From Bemisia tabaci (lineage: Eukaryota; Arthropoda; Insecta; Hemiptera; Aleyrodidae), in NCBI RefSeq assembly GCF_918797505.1, contig NC_092799.1:33368597-33432596 (forward strand): a stretch of 64,000 nt of DNA. Direction: 5' to 3'. The position numbers and the translations under genes were made by a program. How positions within the stretch are numbered: position 1 is the stretch's first letter; every line of letters begins with the position of its first letter. A model generated the notes under the pieces. That model ran no database searches and had not been told where the DNA came from. It saw only the letters and a list, made by a program, of their open reading frames with translations. Below, piece by piece: positions 13,965 to 55,026 of the stretch.

Positions 13965-15263
13965 GACCTGCTCAGGGCCGGATTTAGGGGGCGGTACATG
14001 TTGCAATTTTTTCTAATCTTATAGGTATAAATAAAAAAAGTCGGATTCAGAAAAAAAAATTGAAAAGAGAGAAGGCGACAAAATGTCTCATTTCCTGAGA
14101 GTTAAAGCATAGTATTTAATTTCTAATTTGTTCGTCCTTAGGTGATACAAGAGACAGCGTCTTTCATTAGTCTAGTTGAGAGAGAAACCAAACACGCAAT
14201 TTGGCCTGGAGCGGCGCGACGCAAAGAGCAATGATGACGAGGACTTGAGATGAAAAGGAGAAGCCCTCGGCGCGCTGGTCAGCATGAAACACATATCAGC
14301 GCCTACAAGACTCTGTGAATTCTTCACGCATTGCGTCAAACGTAGTGCGGACAGCAGCGATCGGCGTGAAACGCATAGCGCCTACCAGACTGCATGAATA
14401 CTTCACGCATTGCGTAAAAAATAGTGCGGTCAGCAGCGGTTGGCGTGAAACGCATAGCGCCTCCGAGACTGCAGGGATACTTCACGCATTGCGCCAAACA
14501 CACTGCGATTGGCGCGCGCGGTGGTGGAAATTAAAATTATTAAACCACATTCATGTTTATTCTTTCATAATTTTTTCGTTCATTTCTTATAAATGAAAGG
14601 CTTTGTCCACGCAGAGCTAGGTTTACGGAACTTAACTTTCGCGCTAAGTTCCGTGAACTTTGGCTAGTGTTGACAGGGCTTTCACAAAAAATGTGCCCAA
14701 CACGAGTAAACGCGTCTTGTGCACCCCTCCTCCTCCGGCACGTTCACTTGATGGTTTGTATCGATGTTTCAAAACGAATGAGAAGGGGACGGCAAAATAC
14801 AGGCGGCCCATGGGCGGCAAGTAGGTACACTGAAAAAAAATTCTCGGCGTTTTTACCAAGGTCCGTTGGTACCTTTACCATCTCACTTGTTTTACCAATT
14901 ATTGGTAATTTTACCAAGACAGACTGGTAAGCTTACCTAAAAACCGGTATTTTTACTGTTTTCTTCAGGTAAGAATACCACTTTTATTGGTAATCAATTC
15001 CCGGTAACTTTGCCATTTTATCTCGGTGATTCTACCAATGTCGATAAAAAATATTGTTGTTTTTACCAAGGTCCAGTAAAATTACCAAGAAAGTTCAATA
15101 ATTTTACCGAGATTTCTCGGTAAAATTACCAATTCCATTAATGGTAATTTTACCAAGAAAAAACTGGGATCAAATAGAACCCTGAATTCGTGGTAATTTT
15201 ACTCTTTTCTTAGTAAATATACCGAGATTTTTGTTTCAGTGTAAATCCGGCCCTGGACCTGCT
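13965..15263 (+). mobile_element. Family C hAT-type MITE, copy 1
   Basis: The element proper is 13973-15255, with CAGGGCCGGATTTA and its inverse at the ends. It is flanked by a perfect 8-bp TSD, GACCTGCT, at 13965-13972 and 15256-15263. Termini of CAGGG with 8-bp duplications fit the hAT superfamily. The interior has three minisatellite units of about 79 bp (GCGCCTAC/C...GACTG near 14300, 14379 and 14458). There is no transposase. Family E is nested near the right end. Confidence 0.9.
14828..15241 (+). mobile_element. Family E element nested in hAT, copy 1
   Basis: Starts CACTGAAAAAAAATTC and ends TTTGTTTCAGTG, with TA at 14826-14827 and 15242-15243. Removing it with one TA restores the hAT sequence seen in other copies (AAGTAGGTAAATCCGG). 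The interior is made of repeated TACCAA/TTGGTA words on both strands. Confidence 0.9.
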
Positions 15264-23027: not shown

Positions 23028-23942
23028 CGGTGGTGCAGGGCCGGATTTAGGAGGTGGCCACATGGGCCGCGGCCCATGGCGGCAAATCTAAGGGGCGGCA
23101 AAAATTTGTAATTTTTTAAAGAGCAGGTATAAAAAAAATTGGATTTATAAGAACAAAATTACAAACAAGGAAAGGCGACAAAATCTCTCATTCCCGGAGA
23201 GTATAGTAATTTCTAATTTTTTCGTCTCTTAGTGATACAAGAGACAGCACCTTCAATAAGTCGAGTTAAGAGAGAGACCAAACACGCAATTTGGCCTGGA
23301 ACGACGCGACTTACCTAGAGAGAAATGATGACGAGGACTTGAGATGAAAAGGAGAGGCCCTCGACGCGGCGATCAGCATGTAACACATAATAGCGCCTAC
23401 AGGACTGCAAGAATACTTCACGCATTGCATCAAACACAGTGCGGTCATTCTGGTCAGCGTGAAACGGATAGCGCCTACAAGAATGCGTGAATGCTTCACG
23501 CATTGCATCAAACACAGTGCGGTCATTGCGGACAGCATGAAACGGATAGCGCCTACAAGAATGCATGAATACCTCACGCATTGCGGCAAACACAGTGCGG
23601 TCTGCGAGGCGCGGCGGCGGAAGTCAAAATCATTAATTCACATTTATGTTTGTTCTTTCATAATTTTTCCGTTCATTTTTTACGAATGGAAGGCCTTGCC
23701 CACACAGAGATAGGTTTACGAAACTTAAATTTCGCGCAAAGTTCCGTGAACGTTTTCTAGTAGTGTTAACGAGGCTTTCCCAAAAAATGTGTTCAACACG
23801 AGTAAACGCGTCTTATGCACCCTTCCCCCGCTAACACGTTCTTTTGATGGTTTTTATCGAGTTTCAAAACGAATGAGAGGGGGGCGGCAAAATACAGGCG
23901 GCCCATGGGCGGCAAGTAGGTGAATCCGGCCTTACGGTGGTG
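23028..23942 (+). mobile_element. Family C hAT-type MITE, copy 2
   Basis: The element is 23036-23934, with CAGGGCCGGATTTA at the left and AATCCGGCCTTA (mutated) at the right. The TSD CGGTGGTG is perfect at 23028-23035 and 23935-23942. Three internal minisatellite units of about 79 bp are present. There is no transposase. Confidence 0.9.
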
Positions 23943-31972: not shown

Positions 31973-33466
31973 ATTCTTGGCACGGTTACAAAATATTTAA
32001 CTGCAATTTTAAAGTTACAGACTCTCTGCATGGACATCAGCTGATCATAATCCTCGCAGTGTTTTTCCTATTTTTCCAGCATGCATATCCAACCTCCTCC
32101 ACACCTAACGATTCCCTTCCTTCAATGATTCACGTTGTAGTTAGCCACTGCGTAACACTAGGTCGTGGCAACATCGAGTCATGATGAGTAGTGACCGAGC
32201 TAAAACGCGGGCTGCGCGCCAGTTTTGGACAGAACCGTAACTTATAAAGTAAGCCATAACAATGTAGACAACGAACAGCGTCCCCACGGCCGCCCCCAGC
32301 CCCCGTTCCAACCCCCGAATAATTGTCGGTCGGCTGTAGATTTTAGTTATATGGCCAGCGTCCACGAGCGGCAAATGATCGCTCTAATTTGTAATCTATG
32401 ATTGAATGCGGTTTTCTCTCTCGGCCCGCAAACCCCCTCCCCTCCCTCCTCCTCAACCCCCCCCACCATTTTACACCACCCCCGCCGTGTCATTCGACCT
32501 AATCCCTTAAGCCCTGGCAAGGTTGAAGGTTATGATGTCGCTAACGTTACCGTTTTCCTGACCTTTTTTTTCCCTCGCCTATCAATTTGATTGACCTCGG
32601 ACCGGGGCGGAGGGGGGATGGGGGATGGGGGGGGGGGGTGCGGCCCGCTAAAGCCGGCGCATTATAGCTGCCTCGCAGACTTGAGTGCCCCTGATTTATC
32701 CCCTCGTTGCGACCCCTCATTATGTAATGCACTTTATAATCCGTGTTATCCCATGTGAAGACAGTCCGAGCACCTCCACCCCTCCCCCCTCCCCGGACCT
32801 GGCCGTAGGATGATACGCCGACGATTAATCTTTAGCTTTTTTTAATAAGCTTTTTAATCGTTTTTTGATGTTGACGGGATTTTATTATTTTTTTTTTTCA
32901 TTTTTTTTGCGCCCTTCTCCCTTTATGACGAAATCCGCTCCCCTTTATGCGATTTTTAATGCGGGACCCGGATTACATCAAAGTAGAGTGTCGCATCGGA
33001 GAAAATTTTTTTTTTCGGAAATGAAAACAAACGGCTTTAACGGACATCATTAATATAAACTTCGAAGGATTCAGACTTTCAGCGATTCCACCTTTTTCTA
33101 TTTCACTTGAGAGGTTGCCAGATTGTGCGATAAATGTGAATATTTTACATGGATTTGAATTGGGAAAAGTGCTAAAAAAGCAACTTATCTGGCAACAATA
33201 GAGTTCGGGAGGGACGAGAGGCTGCCTTCCTGGGAAAACCCATGATTTAGCCGGAAATGTCATTAAAACAATTGATTCCGTTTGAAGCATCAATTGTATA
33301 CTAGGGGAAAGCTATTTTAAAATTGTAAATGGACCAAGATGCTACAAAAAAGGAAAAAGGAAAGGGAAAGGAAATGAAATGAGGATATGATTACTGATAT
33401 GCAATCAGAGAGAATAAAACAAAAACATCAGAGAAATTTATATGCGATGAAAATATAAGAAAAAAA
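31973..33466. other. Unassigned, with GC-rich, G-run-rich island
   Basis: About 32400-32660 and 32760-32820 are GC-rich. 32604-32639 is a strong G-quadruplex-type sequence (four or more G runs). Poly-T-rich DNA follows at 32880-32910. No gene is supported. Confidence 0.45.
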
Positions 33467-33539
33467 CACGAGTGGGCTCATTGCGATTCGGAACTCGAAC
33501 TATACTATCGTTGAGCAGTTTTTAGACCCCTACGCCACC
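33467..33539 (-). mobile_element. tRNA-like SINE head (possible)
   Basis: On the minus strand an A-box-like TGGCGTAGGGGT lies about 36 nt before a B-box-like AGTTCGAGTTC. The 73-nt unit is followed by a T6 run (33461-33466), which would terminate RNA polymerase III. The ends do not pair as an acceptor stem, so this is not a functional tRNA gene. A tRNA-derived SINE head or tRNA pseudogene is the best reading. Confidence 0.35.
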
Positions 33540-33826
33540 GATAATCTTTTTAAGAGGTAAAGATGAACTTTCGCTACTTCAGCAAGTCAAATCGCGGAAG
33601 GAGATCCATGAATTGTCTTTTTCCGCCACCCGATGGGATGACTCCCAGTCAAATGCGCTTTTGAAGAAATGATCGATCCCCATCATCGCTTCGTCTCCAC
33701 ACATCTATTCATGTGCGAATGATGGCACGCTCCGGCAACAAGGCTCTGTGACGAAATCATTTTTGCCTCCAGAGTCTCCAAAATGTATACATTTTAGTGA
33801 TCAAATGTCCAATCACTGAGAAAAAT

Positions 33827-33925
33827 GGCTCGCGGAGCGAGCCGAATGTCACTCGCGTAGCGAGTGATCGGGGGTCCAGGGGGCGCAGCCCCCTGGCTGG
33901 CCGTGACGGACGCGCTTGCGCGTCC
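33827..33925. repeat. Block of four GC-rich perfect hairpins
   Basis: Four stem-loops follow each other: 33827-33843 (7-bp stem, loop GGA), 33849-33867 (8 bp, loop GTA), 33876-33896 (9 bp, loop GCA) and 33908-33925 (8 bp, loop TT). In the first three the loop is GNA closed by C-G, the known extra-stable DNA mini-hairpin motif. The block is sharply more GC-rich than its AT-rich surroundings. Confidence 0.85.
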
Positions 33926-34050
33926 AGAACGGCTAGTTCTCATTGTGTAAGATCAATGAATGAGGAACCCTTCAAGCCGCAAAATAGTGTGTCACACTTA
34001 AAGTTCTTTTTTTTATAAATGAGGGAAATGACCAATGAATTCTTTCGGTA

Positions 34051-34744: not shown

Positions 34745-35639
34745 CTTAGCATCAGGGTCGGATTAAGGGGGTGGCCACATGGACCGCGGCCCATGGCGGC
34801 AAATCTAGGGGGCGGCAATTGTTGGGAGCGTCAAATTTTGCATTTTTTTTAAATGTGGGTATAAAAAAATCGGATTTAGAAAAAAAAATTACAAACGAAA
34901 AAAGGCGATAAAATCTCTCATTTCCTGAGAGTATGGTAATTTCTAATTTTGTTGTCTTTCAGTGATACAAGTGACAGCACCTTTAATTAGTCGAGTTAAG
35001 AAAAAAACCAAACACGCAATCTGGCCGGACTTGAGATGAAAAGGAGAAGCCCTCGGCGCGCCGATCGATCGGCATGTTACACATATTAGCGCCTACAAGA
35101 CTGCACGAATACTTCACACATTGCATAAAACACAGTGCGGCCACTGCGGTCAGCGTGAAACGGATATAGCACGTGCAATAATGCATGAATACTTCATGCA
35201 TTGCGTCAAACACAGTGCGTTCAGCAGCGGTCGGCGTGAAAATCATAGTACGTACAAGACTGTCGGAATACTTCACGCATTGCGCTAAACACGGTGTGGT
35301 CTGCGCGGCGCGATGGTGGTTAAAATCATTAAACCACATTTATGTTTGTTCTTTCATGATTTTTTCGTTCATTTCTTATAAATAGAAGGCCTTGTTTACA
35401 AAGAGATAGGTTTACGAAACTTAAATTTCGCGCAAAGTTCTGTGAATTTTTGCTAGTAGTGTTGACAGGGCTTTCCCAAAAAATGTGTCCAACACGAGTA
35501 AACGCGGCTTAAGCACCCCTCCCCCGCTGGCACGTTCACTTGATGGTTTTTATTGATGATTCAAAACGAATAGAATGGGGGCGGCAAGATACATGCGGCC
35601 CATGGTCGGAAAGTAGGCAAATCCGACCCTGCCTAGCAT
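34745..35639 (+). mobile_element. Family C hAT-type MITE, copy 3
   Basis: The element is 34753-35631 with CAGGGTCGGATTAAG and AATCCGACCCTG ends. The flanks CTTAGCAT and CCTAGCAT agree at 7 of 8 positions. Three minisatellite units are present inside. Confidence 0.9.
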
Positions 35640-38369: not shown

Positions 38370-39535
38370 AATACTGCCATGCTAAGGCAAAACGCCGTAT
38401 GAACCTTCAGGCGTTGCCAAGTTTCCTTTGATAAAACACGACATTCCCGCGCAGGGCCGGATTTAGGGGATGGCCACATAGGCCGCGGCCCATGGCGGCA
38501 AATTTAGCGATTTTTTTAAACATAGCTATAAAGAAAAATCGGATTCAGGGAAAAAATTACAAACGAAAAAAGATGACAAAATCTCTCATTTCCCGAGAGT
38601 ATATCTCTAATTTTGTTGTCTTCCTGTGATACAATAGACAGCACCTTTAATTAGTCGAGTTAAGACTAAGAGAGAAACCGAACACGGAATTTGGCCTGGA
38701 ACGGCGCGGCGCAGAGAGCAATGATGACGAGAACTTGAGATGAACAGGAGAAACCCACGGCGCGGCGCGGCGGGTCGGCATGTAACACATATTAGCGCCT
38801 ACAAGACTGCATGAATACTTCACGCATTGCGTCAAAGATAGTGCTGTCGCTGCGGTCTGCAGCGGGCGGCGTGAAACGCATAGCGCCTACAAGACTGCAT
38901 GAATACTTCACGCATTACGTCAAACTTAGTGCGTGCGTACAGCAGCGGTCGGCGTGAAACGCATAGCGCATACAAGACTGTAGGAATACTTCACGCATTG
39001 CGCCAAACACGGTGCAATCAGCGCGGCGCGGCGGCGGAAGTTAAAATTATTAAAGCACATTTATGTTTGTGCTTTCATAATATTTTCGTTCATTTCTTGT
39101 AAATCGAAGGCCTTGTCCACACAGAGATAGGTTTACGGAACTTAACTTTCGCGCAAGTTACGTGAATTTTTGCTAGTAGTGTTGACAGGGCTTTCGCAAA
39201 AAATGTGTCCAACACGAGTAAACGCGTCTTATGCACCCCTACCCCTCCGGCACGTTCACTTGATGGTTTTTACTGATGTTTCAAAGCGATTGAGAAGGGG
39301 GCGGTAAAATACAGGCGGCCCATGGGCGGCAAGCAAGTCAATCCGGCCCTGCATTCCCGGTAAACTTGCGAATATTTTTCTTCAAATTTTTCAGAAAATT
39401 TTGTTCGCAGTTTCACTCAAAATTCATGATTTCAGGTAAAATGCTCATATATTTCCTTAAAAATGAATATTTTAGTGAAGGCAACGTGGCAACTATCGAA
39501 TGTTCATACGGCGTTCTTCCGGACACGGCAGAATA
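38370..39535 (-). mobile_element. Family A MITE, copy 9, split by a hAT MITE
   Basis: The element is 38374-39531, flanked by a perfect AATA TSD at 38370-38373 and 39532-39535. A family C hAT element sits inside it at 38450-39351. Without the insert the A element is about 250 bp. Confidence 0.9.
38442..39359 (+). mobile_element. Family C hAT-type MITE, copy 4, nested
   Basis: The 8-bp TSD CATTCCCG occurs at 38442-38449 and 39352-39359. The left end has two extra bases (CG) before CAGGGCCGGATT; the right end is AATCCGGCCCTG. Three minisatellite units are inside. Confidence 0.9.
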
Positions 39536-48814: not shown

Positions 48815-49163
48815 ATATAAGAAGAAGAGGGGATAGAGGAGAAAAGGGAAGTATACACAAGAATCTCTCAAAAATTAAAAAAAAAAGGATGAGGCTATTC
48901 GTCGGTACGGTACCGACGGATAAATGGCTATTCGTCGGTACCGTACCGATGAATAAATGGCTATTCGTCGGTACCGTACCGATGAATAAATGGCTATTCG
49001 TCGGTACCGTACCGATGAATAAATGGCTATTCGTCGGTACCGCATCGGCGACAGGTGAATTCGTTTCCGCGAGTTGGTGGACCTGAAATTTTGGCAGTTA
49101 GAAAAACAAACAGTTCAAGAAATTCATAACAGTGGCATTCATCAATTAAATCAGTGCAATTGA

Positions 49164-49556: not shown

Positions 49557-49834
49557 GAGAGTATTAAATACATAAATTAAATTTGGAGAATATTTCTTTA
49601 CAACTCGTGTTGGGTTTTTTTTTTCCATCTTTCACCCAATTTTTAGCTCTTAACTTCCACCAAAATATCATTAAGAAATCATATCTTTAATATAATTTAC
49701 GTACTAAAATCAAAGTACGGTACCGACGAATAGCTATTTATTCATCGGTACGGTACCGACGAATAGCCATTTATTCATCGGTACGGTACCGACGAATAGC
49801 CATTTATCCGTCGGTACCGTACCGACGAATAGCC

Positions 49835-50389
49835 ACTTCGAAAAAAAAAAACCAAAAAACCCCCGTTAACTTTCATGAATTTTATCAGCTTGATTCATAT
49901 AAACTAGTCAGTGGCTGCAACTTGAGGATAGAAGAGGAGAAGGAGATAGCTCGTGAGAAATGTTGACGCCTTACATCAGAGCGTACTGTTTGTGCCCGTC
50001 TAGACGAGCCCGATAGACAATTCATTCCGGAAATAAAAATGCATGCACCCTTTGTGCGTACCTTGACCAAGACTGGGCGATGACTTGGAGCAGTGTACTC
50101 TGGACTCCCTCTTGATGCATTCAAACAATAATAAAATCATGAGGAAAACGACGGCCTAGGCAGGGGCAGGGTGTGCTAACGCGGGGCTGTCAACAACGCG
50201 ACCCGGCGTCTTACTGTCTTCATTTGTTTACACGTGAATGAGGTCCACGAGTTGCCACGTTTTTCTTCAAGAAGGTACGCGAAGTCACTCGAGTCGCAAC
50301 GCGAAGGAGCGGGTCATCTGAGAGCATGCACCAAATGCATTCATGTGTCGATCCGTAGAGGATTCCTAGAGGATTCATAGAGGAGTCGG
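49835..50389. other. Unassigned sequence
   Basis: No gene is supported. AGAGGATTC/AGAGGAGTC words repeat near 50356-50390. Confidence 0.4.
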
Positions 50390-53675: not shown

Positions 53676-55026
53676 CACACGATCAGGGCCGGATTTACCT
53701 ACTTGCCGCCCATGGACCGCCTGTATTTTGCCGCCCCCTTCTCATTCGAATTGAAACATCAATAAAAACCATCAAGTGAACGTGCCAGCGGGGGAGGGGT
53801 GCATAAGACGCGTTTACTCGTGTTGAACACATTTTTTGGGGATGCCCTGTCAACACTACTAGCAAAAGTTAAGTTTTGTAAACCTATCTCTGTGTGGACA
53901 AGGCCATCCATTCATAAGAAATGAACGAAAAAATTATGGAAGAACAAATATGAATGTGGTTTAATGATTTTAACTTCCGCCACCGCGCCTCGCAGACCGC
54001 ATTGGCGCAATGCGTGAAGTATTCACGCAGTCTTGTAGGCGCTACGCGTTTCACGCTGACCGCACTGTGTTTGGCGCAATGCGTGAAGTATTCATGCATT
54101 CTTGTAGGCGCTATCCGTTTCACGCTGACCGCAAAGATCGCACTGTATTTGATGCAATGCGTGAAGTATTCGTGCAGTCTTGTAGGCGCTGATATGTGTT
54201 ACATGCCGATCACCGCGGCGATGGCTTCTCCTTTTCATCTCAAGTCCTCGTCATCGTTGCTCTCTGCGCCGCGTGTTTGGTTTCTCTCTTAACTCGACTA
54301 ATTAAAGGTGCTGTCTCTTGTATCAATGAAGGACGACAAAATTAAAAATTACTACACTTTCAGGAAATGAGAGATTTTGTCGCCTTTTCTCGTTTGTAAT
54401 TTTAAGCGCTCAACCGATAGGCAGCGCTTTTTTATTTCGACTTGTCTCTAGAATACTAGTATACTAGTGCTAATTCGTTTAAATGGCGCACCAGCTCATC
54501 GATGTGTAGGCTTTTTTTTTGGGGGGGGGGGGTCCAGTTTTAAAATAAATAAAGCTGTGATAACCGTATTTTATGCTTTTAACGTAATGCGCGGGTAGTT
54601 ACGATCGTTTGTCTATAAGAAATTTCCTTAGCGGTAGAGTAATTCTTATCGAAATTGATCGTTGAAAATAAAAGAAGCCTAAAAAAACGCGCCTGATGAG
54701 CTCAACGGTGGCTATCATTTTCGGGAAACGAAAAAACGCGTTTACGGTTTCCTTGGTAACCTTTGTTTTCTATCAGCTGATGTTTTATTTCCATTTCCCA
54801 GCCAAGTCGACGGAGTTTATACTTCCTTTCTTCACTAAATACATTTACTAACACCTGAGCGCTTTTCTAATACGACAGTATTAGAACTTTCCCGCTTGTT
54901 TTGTTCTGAATCCGATATTTTTTTATACCTACATTTAAAAAAATTGCAAAATTTGCCGCCCTCTAGATTTGCCGCCATGGGCCGCGGGCCACGTGGCCAC
55001 CCCCTTAATCCGGCCCTACACACAAT
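53676..55026 (-). mobile_element. Family C hAT-type MITE, copy 5, long version
   Basis: The element is 53684-55018 in reverse orientation, CAGGGCCGGATTTACC to TTAATCCGGCCCTA. The flanks CACACGAT and CACACAAT agree at 7 of 8 positions. Three minisatellite units lie at about 54000-54200. About 500 bp at 54404-54903 are absent from the other four copies. Confidence 0.88.
54404..54903. other. Extra segment in hAT copy 5
   Basis: Starts AAGCGCTCA; TGAGCGCTT ends at 54864, giving 9-bp inverted ends. TAATACGACAGTATTA, an imperfect hairpin, follows. It may be a nested insert, or part of a longer ancestral element deleted from the others. Confidence 0.4.

Follow-up and report, generated by a model that had tools for sequence, protein, structure and literature searches.

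A single hairpin close to the 3′ end is a textbook feature of Helitron transposons, as given in the available portions of PMC4778049 and PMC5148889. Within the part of the Helraiser report that we draw on, deletion of this hairpin left 8.8% of activity and increased read-through, a loop mutant resembled the deletion and a stem swap retained ~90%; the loop counted for more than the stem (PMC4778049). Recognition of the Helitron 3′ end, and the occasional read-through with capture of flanking DNA, are not settled. Single-strand transposons of the IS200/IS605 group also carry a subterminal hairpin, and nearby bases pair with the cleavage tetranucleotide.

The window, by which we mean the whole 64,000-nucleotide stretch of DNA analysed, contains a Helitron copy whose right end is built from four hairpins. 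It has in common with the right end of Helraiser/Helibat1 a 5′-TC, a CTAG-3′, an AT target and a palindrome 11 nt from the end (PMC4778049, in the portion available). Helraiser, according to the same portion of that source, has one hairpin with the loop ATT, whereas the window element has four, three of them with GNA loops, plus an outer stem in which the terminal CTAG could pair (PMC4778049). The Helitron2-type elements FoHeli1/2 of Fusarium resemble the block in having terminal hairpins with C-GAA-G loops, there at the 5′ end, but differ from the window element in having one hairpin per end, asymmetric terminal inverted repeats and the end ATTTT rather than CTAG (PMC5148889, the sections available). 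The features of the window copy are as follows.

33047..33936, + strand: non-autonomous Helitron copy, 890 bp, 5′-TC...CTAG-3′, between A (33046) and T (33937); its limits are common to genomic copies with different flanks
33047..33079, + strand: 5′ terminus (left end), 94% identical over 33 bp to subfamily B
33827..33843, + strand: HP1, 7-bp perfect stem, GGCTCGC-GGA-GCGAGCC
33849..33867, + strand: HP2, 8-bp perfect stem, TCACTCGC-GTA-GCGAGTGA
33876..33896, + strand: HP3, 9-bp perfect stem, CCAGGGGGC-GCA-GCCCCCTGG
33897..33904, + strand: left arm of the predicted outer stem, CTGGCCGT; holds an internal CTRG able to pair with the terminal CTAG
33908..33925, + strand: HP4, 7-bp stem with loop CTTG; the subterminal hairpin canonical for Helitrons, ending 11 nt from the terminus
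33929..33936, + strand: right arm of the predicted outer stem, ACGGCTAG; its last bases are the CTAG terminus

An earlier note on this DNA had described four consecutive GC-rich hairpins within 99 bp (33827-33925), and they are present at these positions. Its stem lengths of 7, 8, 9 and 8 bp are correct for the first three hairpins; the fourth is a 7-bp stem with a CTTG loop, as 8 bp would require a 2-base loop. The three triloops (GGA, GTA and GCA) are each closed by C-G as described, and belong to the stable C(GNA)G class. Three GNA stems are thus present, with one caveat as to their proposed independence: HP1 and HP2 have the apex TCGCGNAGCGA in common and may be a duplicated pair.

Shuffled sequence yielded no such string. 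The window has four hairpins (stem at least 7 bp, loop 3-4) within 99 bp. When the 64 kb were shuffled 200 times with dinucleotides preserved, the richest 99 bp held one such hairpin in 167 shuffles and two in 33; when the block 33827-33936 (72% GC) was shuffled 2000 times, 1953 shuffles had none and 47 had one. The block folded as single-strand DNA gave z-scores of -6.6 and -6.5, and none of 200 shuffles was equally stable.

We searched the host assembly (610 Mb, 151 contigs) with positions 33800-33960 as the query. This revealed 1031 candidate places, and all of the best 40, which were scored and include the window, matched; as these are the best-scoring places, young copies are over-represented among them. 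Copies other than the window have 95-97% identity, and the edge of the repeat shows in the matches, which stop at query bases 136-145. The 3′ end could be aligned in all 40 loci, with CTAG in 38 and T as the next base in 39, in line with the CTRR-3′ rule. The 5′ end, which lies 780 bp upstream of the hairpin block, was aligned in 33 of the 40 loci (seven are without it), and there begins with TC in 32 and is preceded by A in 31. At the two loci with G instead of A, one copy (L055) directly follows the CTAG of another. The block therefore forms the right (3′) end of a canonical Helitron that is non-autonomous, with the features of Helitron1: 5′-TC, CTRR-3′, insertion between A and T, and a hairpin ~10-12 nt from the 3′ end (11 nt for HP4). 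The junctions A|TC and CTAG|T would be compatible with an AT empty site and no target duplication.

The terminal 19 bases with the following T (GCGCGTCCAGAACGGCTAGT) occur exactly 207 times in the genome (control 0), and copies are spread over many contigs. The block had been suggested to be mobile, and the host-genome search agrees, as it recurs as a repeat of the nuclear genome; it is not the free-standing palindrome family that had been envisaged but a Helitron 3′ terminus, and an independent family is ruled out by the 5′ end and body that the copies have in common. Helitron2 elements, or Helentrons, insert between T and T. We rejected that class for this element, given its A|T insertion and CTAG end.

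The earlier note had also raised transfer from a symbiont, and a bacterial, symbiont or organelle source could be argued from short matches. The HP3 25-mer occurs in 33 bacterial-contig stretches, all from Streptomyces, Amycolatopsis or one Anaerolineae MAG, where it represents a dispersed GC-rich palindrome with the same stem, loop and preceding GGT as HP3; however, HP1, HP2, HP4 and CTAG are absent from the 60 bases on each side, and the flanks are unrelated. Viral contigs match HP1 in three cases, HP2 in two and the HP4 18-mer in six, again with unrelated flanks except that two with the same flanks (L040 and L041) continue for five more bases after HP4. These are matches to single hairpins. 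Moreover, among 39 extracted copies including the window, the right arm of HP3 is GCCCCTTGG in 37, GCCCCATGG in one and GCCCCCTGG only in the window copy, so that the bacterial arm matches the perfect HP3 of the window copy and not that of the family. The full hairpin string had no match in 50,697 phage records and only four partial matches (17-26% of the query) in 72,556 plasmid records, and hundreds of copies lie on host contigs. We consequently regard a foreign origin as extremely improbable; nothing in the phage and plasmid records or in the bacterial and viral contigs points to transfer from a bacterium or an organelle, and bacterial repeats or symbiont DNA were rejected as the source. 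As a separate observation, the 25-mer lies within repeats in the 33 bacterial stretches (L001-L033), often followed by more GC-rich sequence.

A sister subfamily, B, matches the window copy at 94% over the first 33 bp and 84% over the last 145 bp, and the only match between the bodies at E < 0.1 is a 24-bp stretch near the 5′ end. An array of subfamily B at C1:31396650-31399000 comprises two complete units of 992 and 991 bp, and at both internal junctions the sequence reads exactly CTAG|TCATTAATAT. Head-to-tail joins of this kind also occur in Helraiser circles, so that exact end-to-end junctions are found both in Helraiser and in this Helitron group (PMC4778049, as far as the available portion covers circles). 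From these junction sequences we infer that this group probably moves by a rolling circle. Subfamily F likewise occurs in arrays. Head-to-tail F-type arrays on C2, C9, C10 and other host contigs (L122-L130) have the junction CTAG|TTAC TCTATATAAAG, and some adjoin TTA repeats; the F-type 5′ end may thus start with TTAC and not TC. Two F-type 3′ ends stand 1.1 kb apart at another locus (L116:4069-5219), and a product that read through the upstream one would carry both ends.

The window copy, at 890 bp, is too short to encode a RepHel transposase, and none of the window's listed frames of 150 aa or more falls within it. The host genome has 102 matches to PF14214. One of these, at C4:22303178, is in an intact stop-free frame of 1454 aa (L131:569-4930) with PF14214 and PIF1 domains and the HUH motif PHAHI, which matches Helraiser 7lcc with an E-value of 9e-201. 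Named RepHel relatives include those of Hemiptera and a damselfly. About 1.2 kb past the stop of this frame is a divergent form of the four-hairpin string with the end CTAG|T (type F). We infer from the sequence that the frame and the F-type end may be one element, given that the 5′ end of the F element was not located. A second place has a like layout, with Rep at C1:63494898 and the end at C1:63490805.

For an autonomous partner, the element was compared by blastn with the loci around 30 of the 102 PF14214 matches (~1.5 kb per side), and the search was extended to downstream DNA of eight PF14214 loci (7.3-7.8 kb for L115-L118; 4 kb from ~3 kb past the Rep domain for L133-L136). None of the loci searched by blastn holds an autonomous RepHel element whose ends are those of the window copy, and the only match, at L116, is to a divergent string. 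The connection of the window copy to RepHel thus runs via the divergent relative F. We rejected C1:63010625 as a partner: a decayed Rep match stands 10 kb upstream of it, but the copy itself is only a non-coding 3′ part. Two further observations concern other Rep loci. About 8 kb downstream of a Rep match in a 1766-aa frame is a single hairpin with a C-GAA-G loop followed by CTAG|T (L115:7374-7402), which would be the end of that element; GNA loops may therefore extend beyond the four-hairpin type. Frames of ~2,500-4,100 aa with a weaker PF14214 match, several of them near-equal in length (for example at C12:338935, C1:14997556 and C7:24143218), are likely young giant Helitron- or Helentron-like elements.

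We then compared loops between copies, using patterns that hold the arms or stem tips fixed. The tandem of HP1 and HP2 followed by CTAGT gave 580 matches when the loops were left free and 472 when both were required to be GNA (controls 0). For HP3 the loop-free pattern gave 593 matches (control 0), and among the 100 listed, which were tallied by hand, 90 loops are GNA, with all four bases in the middle position (GTA 36, GCA 33, GAA 12, GGA 9). The other ten are ACA (4), ATA (4), TTA (1) and CCA (1), eight of which are a single G-to-A step from GNA at a CpG. The loop class singled out in the earlier note is thus kept in 472 of 580 copies for HP1 and HP2 and in 90 of the 100 listed for HP3, although HP3 is not universally GNA: its loop is TT in subfamily C and about CACT in F, and with the arms fixed these subfamilies fall outside the HP3 count. 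Across hundreds of natural copies, the G and A of the loop are mostly fixed and the middle base varies freely, a pattern that matches the rule for the most stable DNA mini-hairpins. GNA loops with at least two G-C pairs form extraordinarily stable DNA mini-hairpins, according to the available part of PMC4686876. As the natural loop series obeys this rule, the contributions of loop stability and loop sequence to termination are directly testable.

Compensatory stem changes had been proposed as a further check. We picked 17 3′ ends from the fetched sequences, representing the window, B, C/D and F types, and aligned them on a structure of 43 pairs; 92.9% of cells are paired. By count of cells, the stems covary between subfamilies. 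Cells with changes on both sides number 35, against 12.2 in shuffles and 0-4 when the structure was slid. By pair, the signal is not clearly above shuffles, with nine pairs changed on both sides against 7.0 (38 of 500 shuffles as high), and the 20 further pair types are not above the 21.6 of shuffles (480 of 500 as high). RNAalifold, unaided, recovered HP1, HP2, most of HP4 and part of the outer stem, and paired HP3 differently. In all 17 aligned ends the terminal CTAG is predicted to be able to pair with an internal CTAG or CTGG, which is suggestive only, as these pairs hardly vary. The order and orientation of the hairpins are constant across subfamilies and at the end beside the RepHel frame.

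Stem changes may also arise by mutation. In four window-type copies (C1:14431598, 38260356, 44589616 and 61928090) and in a B-type copy (L141), the left outer arm reads GTTCTGG, which complements the right arm exactly, in place of GTGACGG; we take GTTCTGG to be the derived state on account of its rarity. The HP1 loop is inverted from GAA to TTC in three listed copies of one subfamily (C1:17486035, 30526119 and 36077889), perhaps by one event, and the HP4 loop is inverted in the same way in L153. In HP4 the loop is AAA in 33 of the 39 extracted copies and TT in the window copy, which may be another inversion. Arm homogenisation and spacer inversion are described outcomes of template switching (PMC8604942 and PMC8794818, in the parts available). 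They suggest that the hairpins form in cells and that template switching accounts for part of the covariation, and since it can itself make compensatory changes, its footprints weaken the covariation as proof of selection.

These signatures would suit a different account of the block, in which HP4 alone is the working terminator and HP1-HP3 are passengers, kept perfect by quasi-palindrome template switching and not by selection. Switching should, however, yield TNC as readily as GNA, and the 100 listed HP3 loops include no TNC; it does not explain why the loops are biased to GNA while their middle base is free. The constant order and orientation between subfamilies and beside the RepHel frame also stand against passengers. 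We consider this account unlikely, though deserving of serious attention.

Our preferred reading, held with reasonable confidence, is that the block is a Helitron 3′ terminus whose hairpins act as a structural terminator on the displaced strand. By analogy with Helraiser, the four hairpins probably mark the stopping point for the copying machinery. Rolling-circle copying would displace the top strand, which would fold into four hairpins, and the GC-rich GNA mini-hairpins would stall or position the Rep-helicase, leading to the nick at CTAG; the array would be a reinforced form of the single terminator hairpin of Helraiser. It is the TC...CTAG strand that carries the GNA loops, in agreement with folding of a displaced top strand. 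The two strands of the window copy differ little in computed stability (-43.3 vs -42.3 kcal/mol), those of the F end more (-37.8 vs -30.5 kcal/mol). A point against the terminator reading is that in exact tandem arrays intact hairpin strings were sometimes passed.

The stems fold as RNA too (-62.7 kcal/mol for the related F end with RNA parameters), and the hairpins could work at the RNA level, for instance by terminating transcription or giving rise to small RNAs, and not as single-stranded DNA. We judge this very unlikely, as Rfam found no family at or above the gathering score in the window, the outer stem involves the transposon's own terminal bases, and the GNA triloop follows a rule of DNA mini-hairpins (PMC4686876, within the part available).

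A more elaborate form of the single-strand terminator is conceivable, in which the three GNA hairpins stall the helicase, the internal CTRG serves as a guide that keeps the terminal CTAG in the outer stem, and the Rep nuclease reads its cleavage site through base pairing, in the manner of IS200/IS605 transposases. We put this forward as a rather doubtful model; IS200/IS605 elements have another class of transposase, and the CTAG/CTRG pairing of the window element is predicted. We found no such structural termination code in the open-access Helitron literature consulted. Likewise, that literature yielded no Helitrons with multiple hairpins or triloops (Repbase lay outside the comparison), and a GNA array of four hairpins whose terminus is paired looks like an uncommon, new version of the known Helitron hairpin.

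Other repeats were noted in the window. On the minus strand within the Helitron, positions 33470-33550 hold a tRNA-like stretch (GTGGCGTAGGGGTCTAA ... GTTCGAGTTCC), which we take to resemble A and B boxes and which is possibly a nested or captured SINE head; ARAGORN called no tRNA there or elsewhere in the window. Five short arrays of a related 69-83-bp unit (CTACAAGACTGCATGAATACTTCACGCATTGCG...), with ~2-3 copies each, lie at 14298-14493, 23390-23602, 35087-35296, 38793-39009 and 54002-54133, the last in reverse orientation to the other four, and resemble copies of a dispersed element that carries its own mini-array. Two further arrays, at 48893-49042 and 49715-49835, appear by eye to have one 33-bp unit in opposite orientations ~670 bp apart, an arrangement reminiscent of subterminal arrays in DNA transposons.
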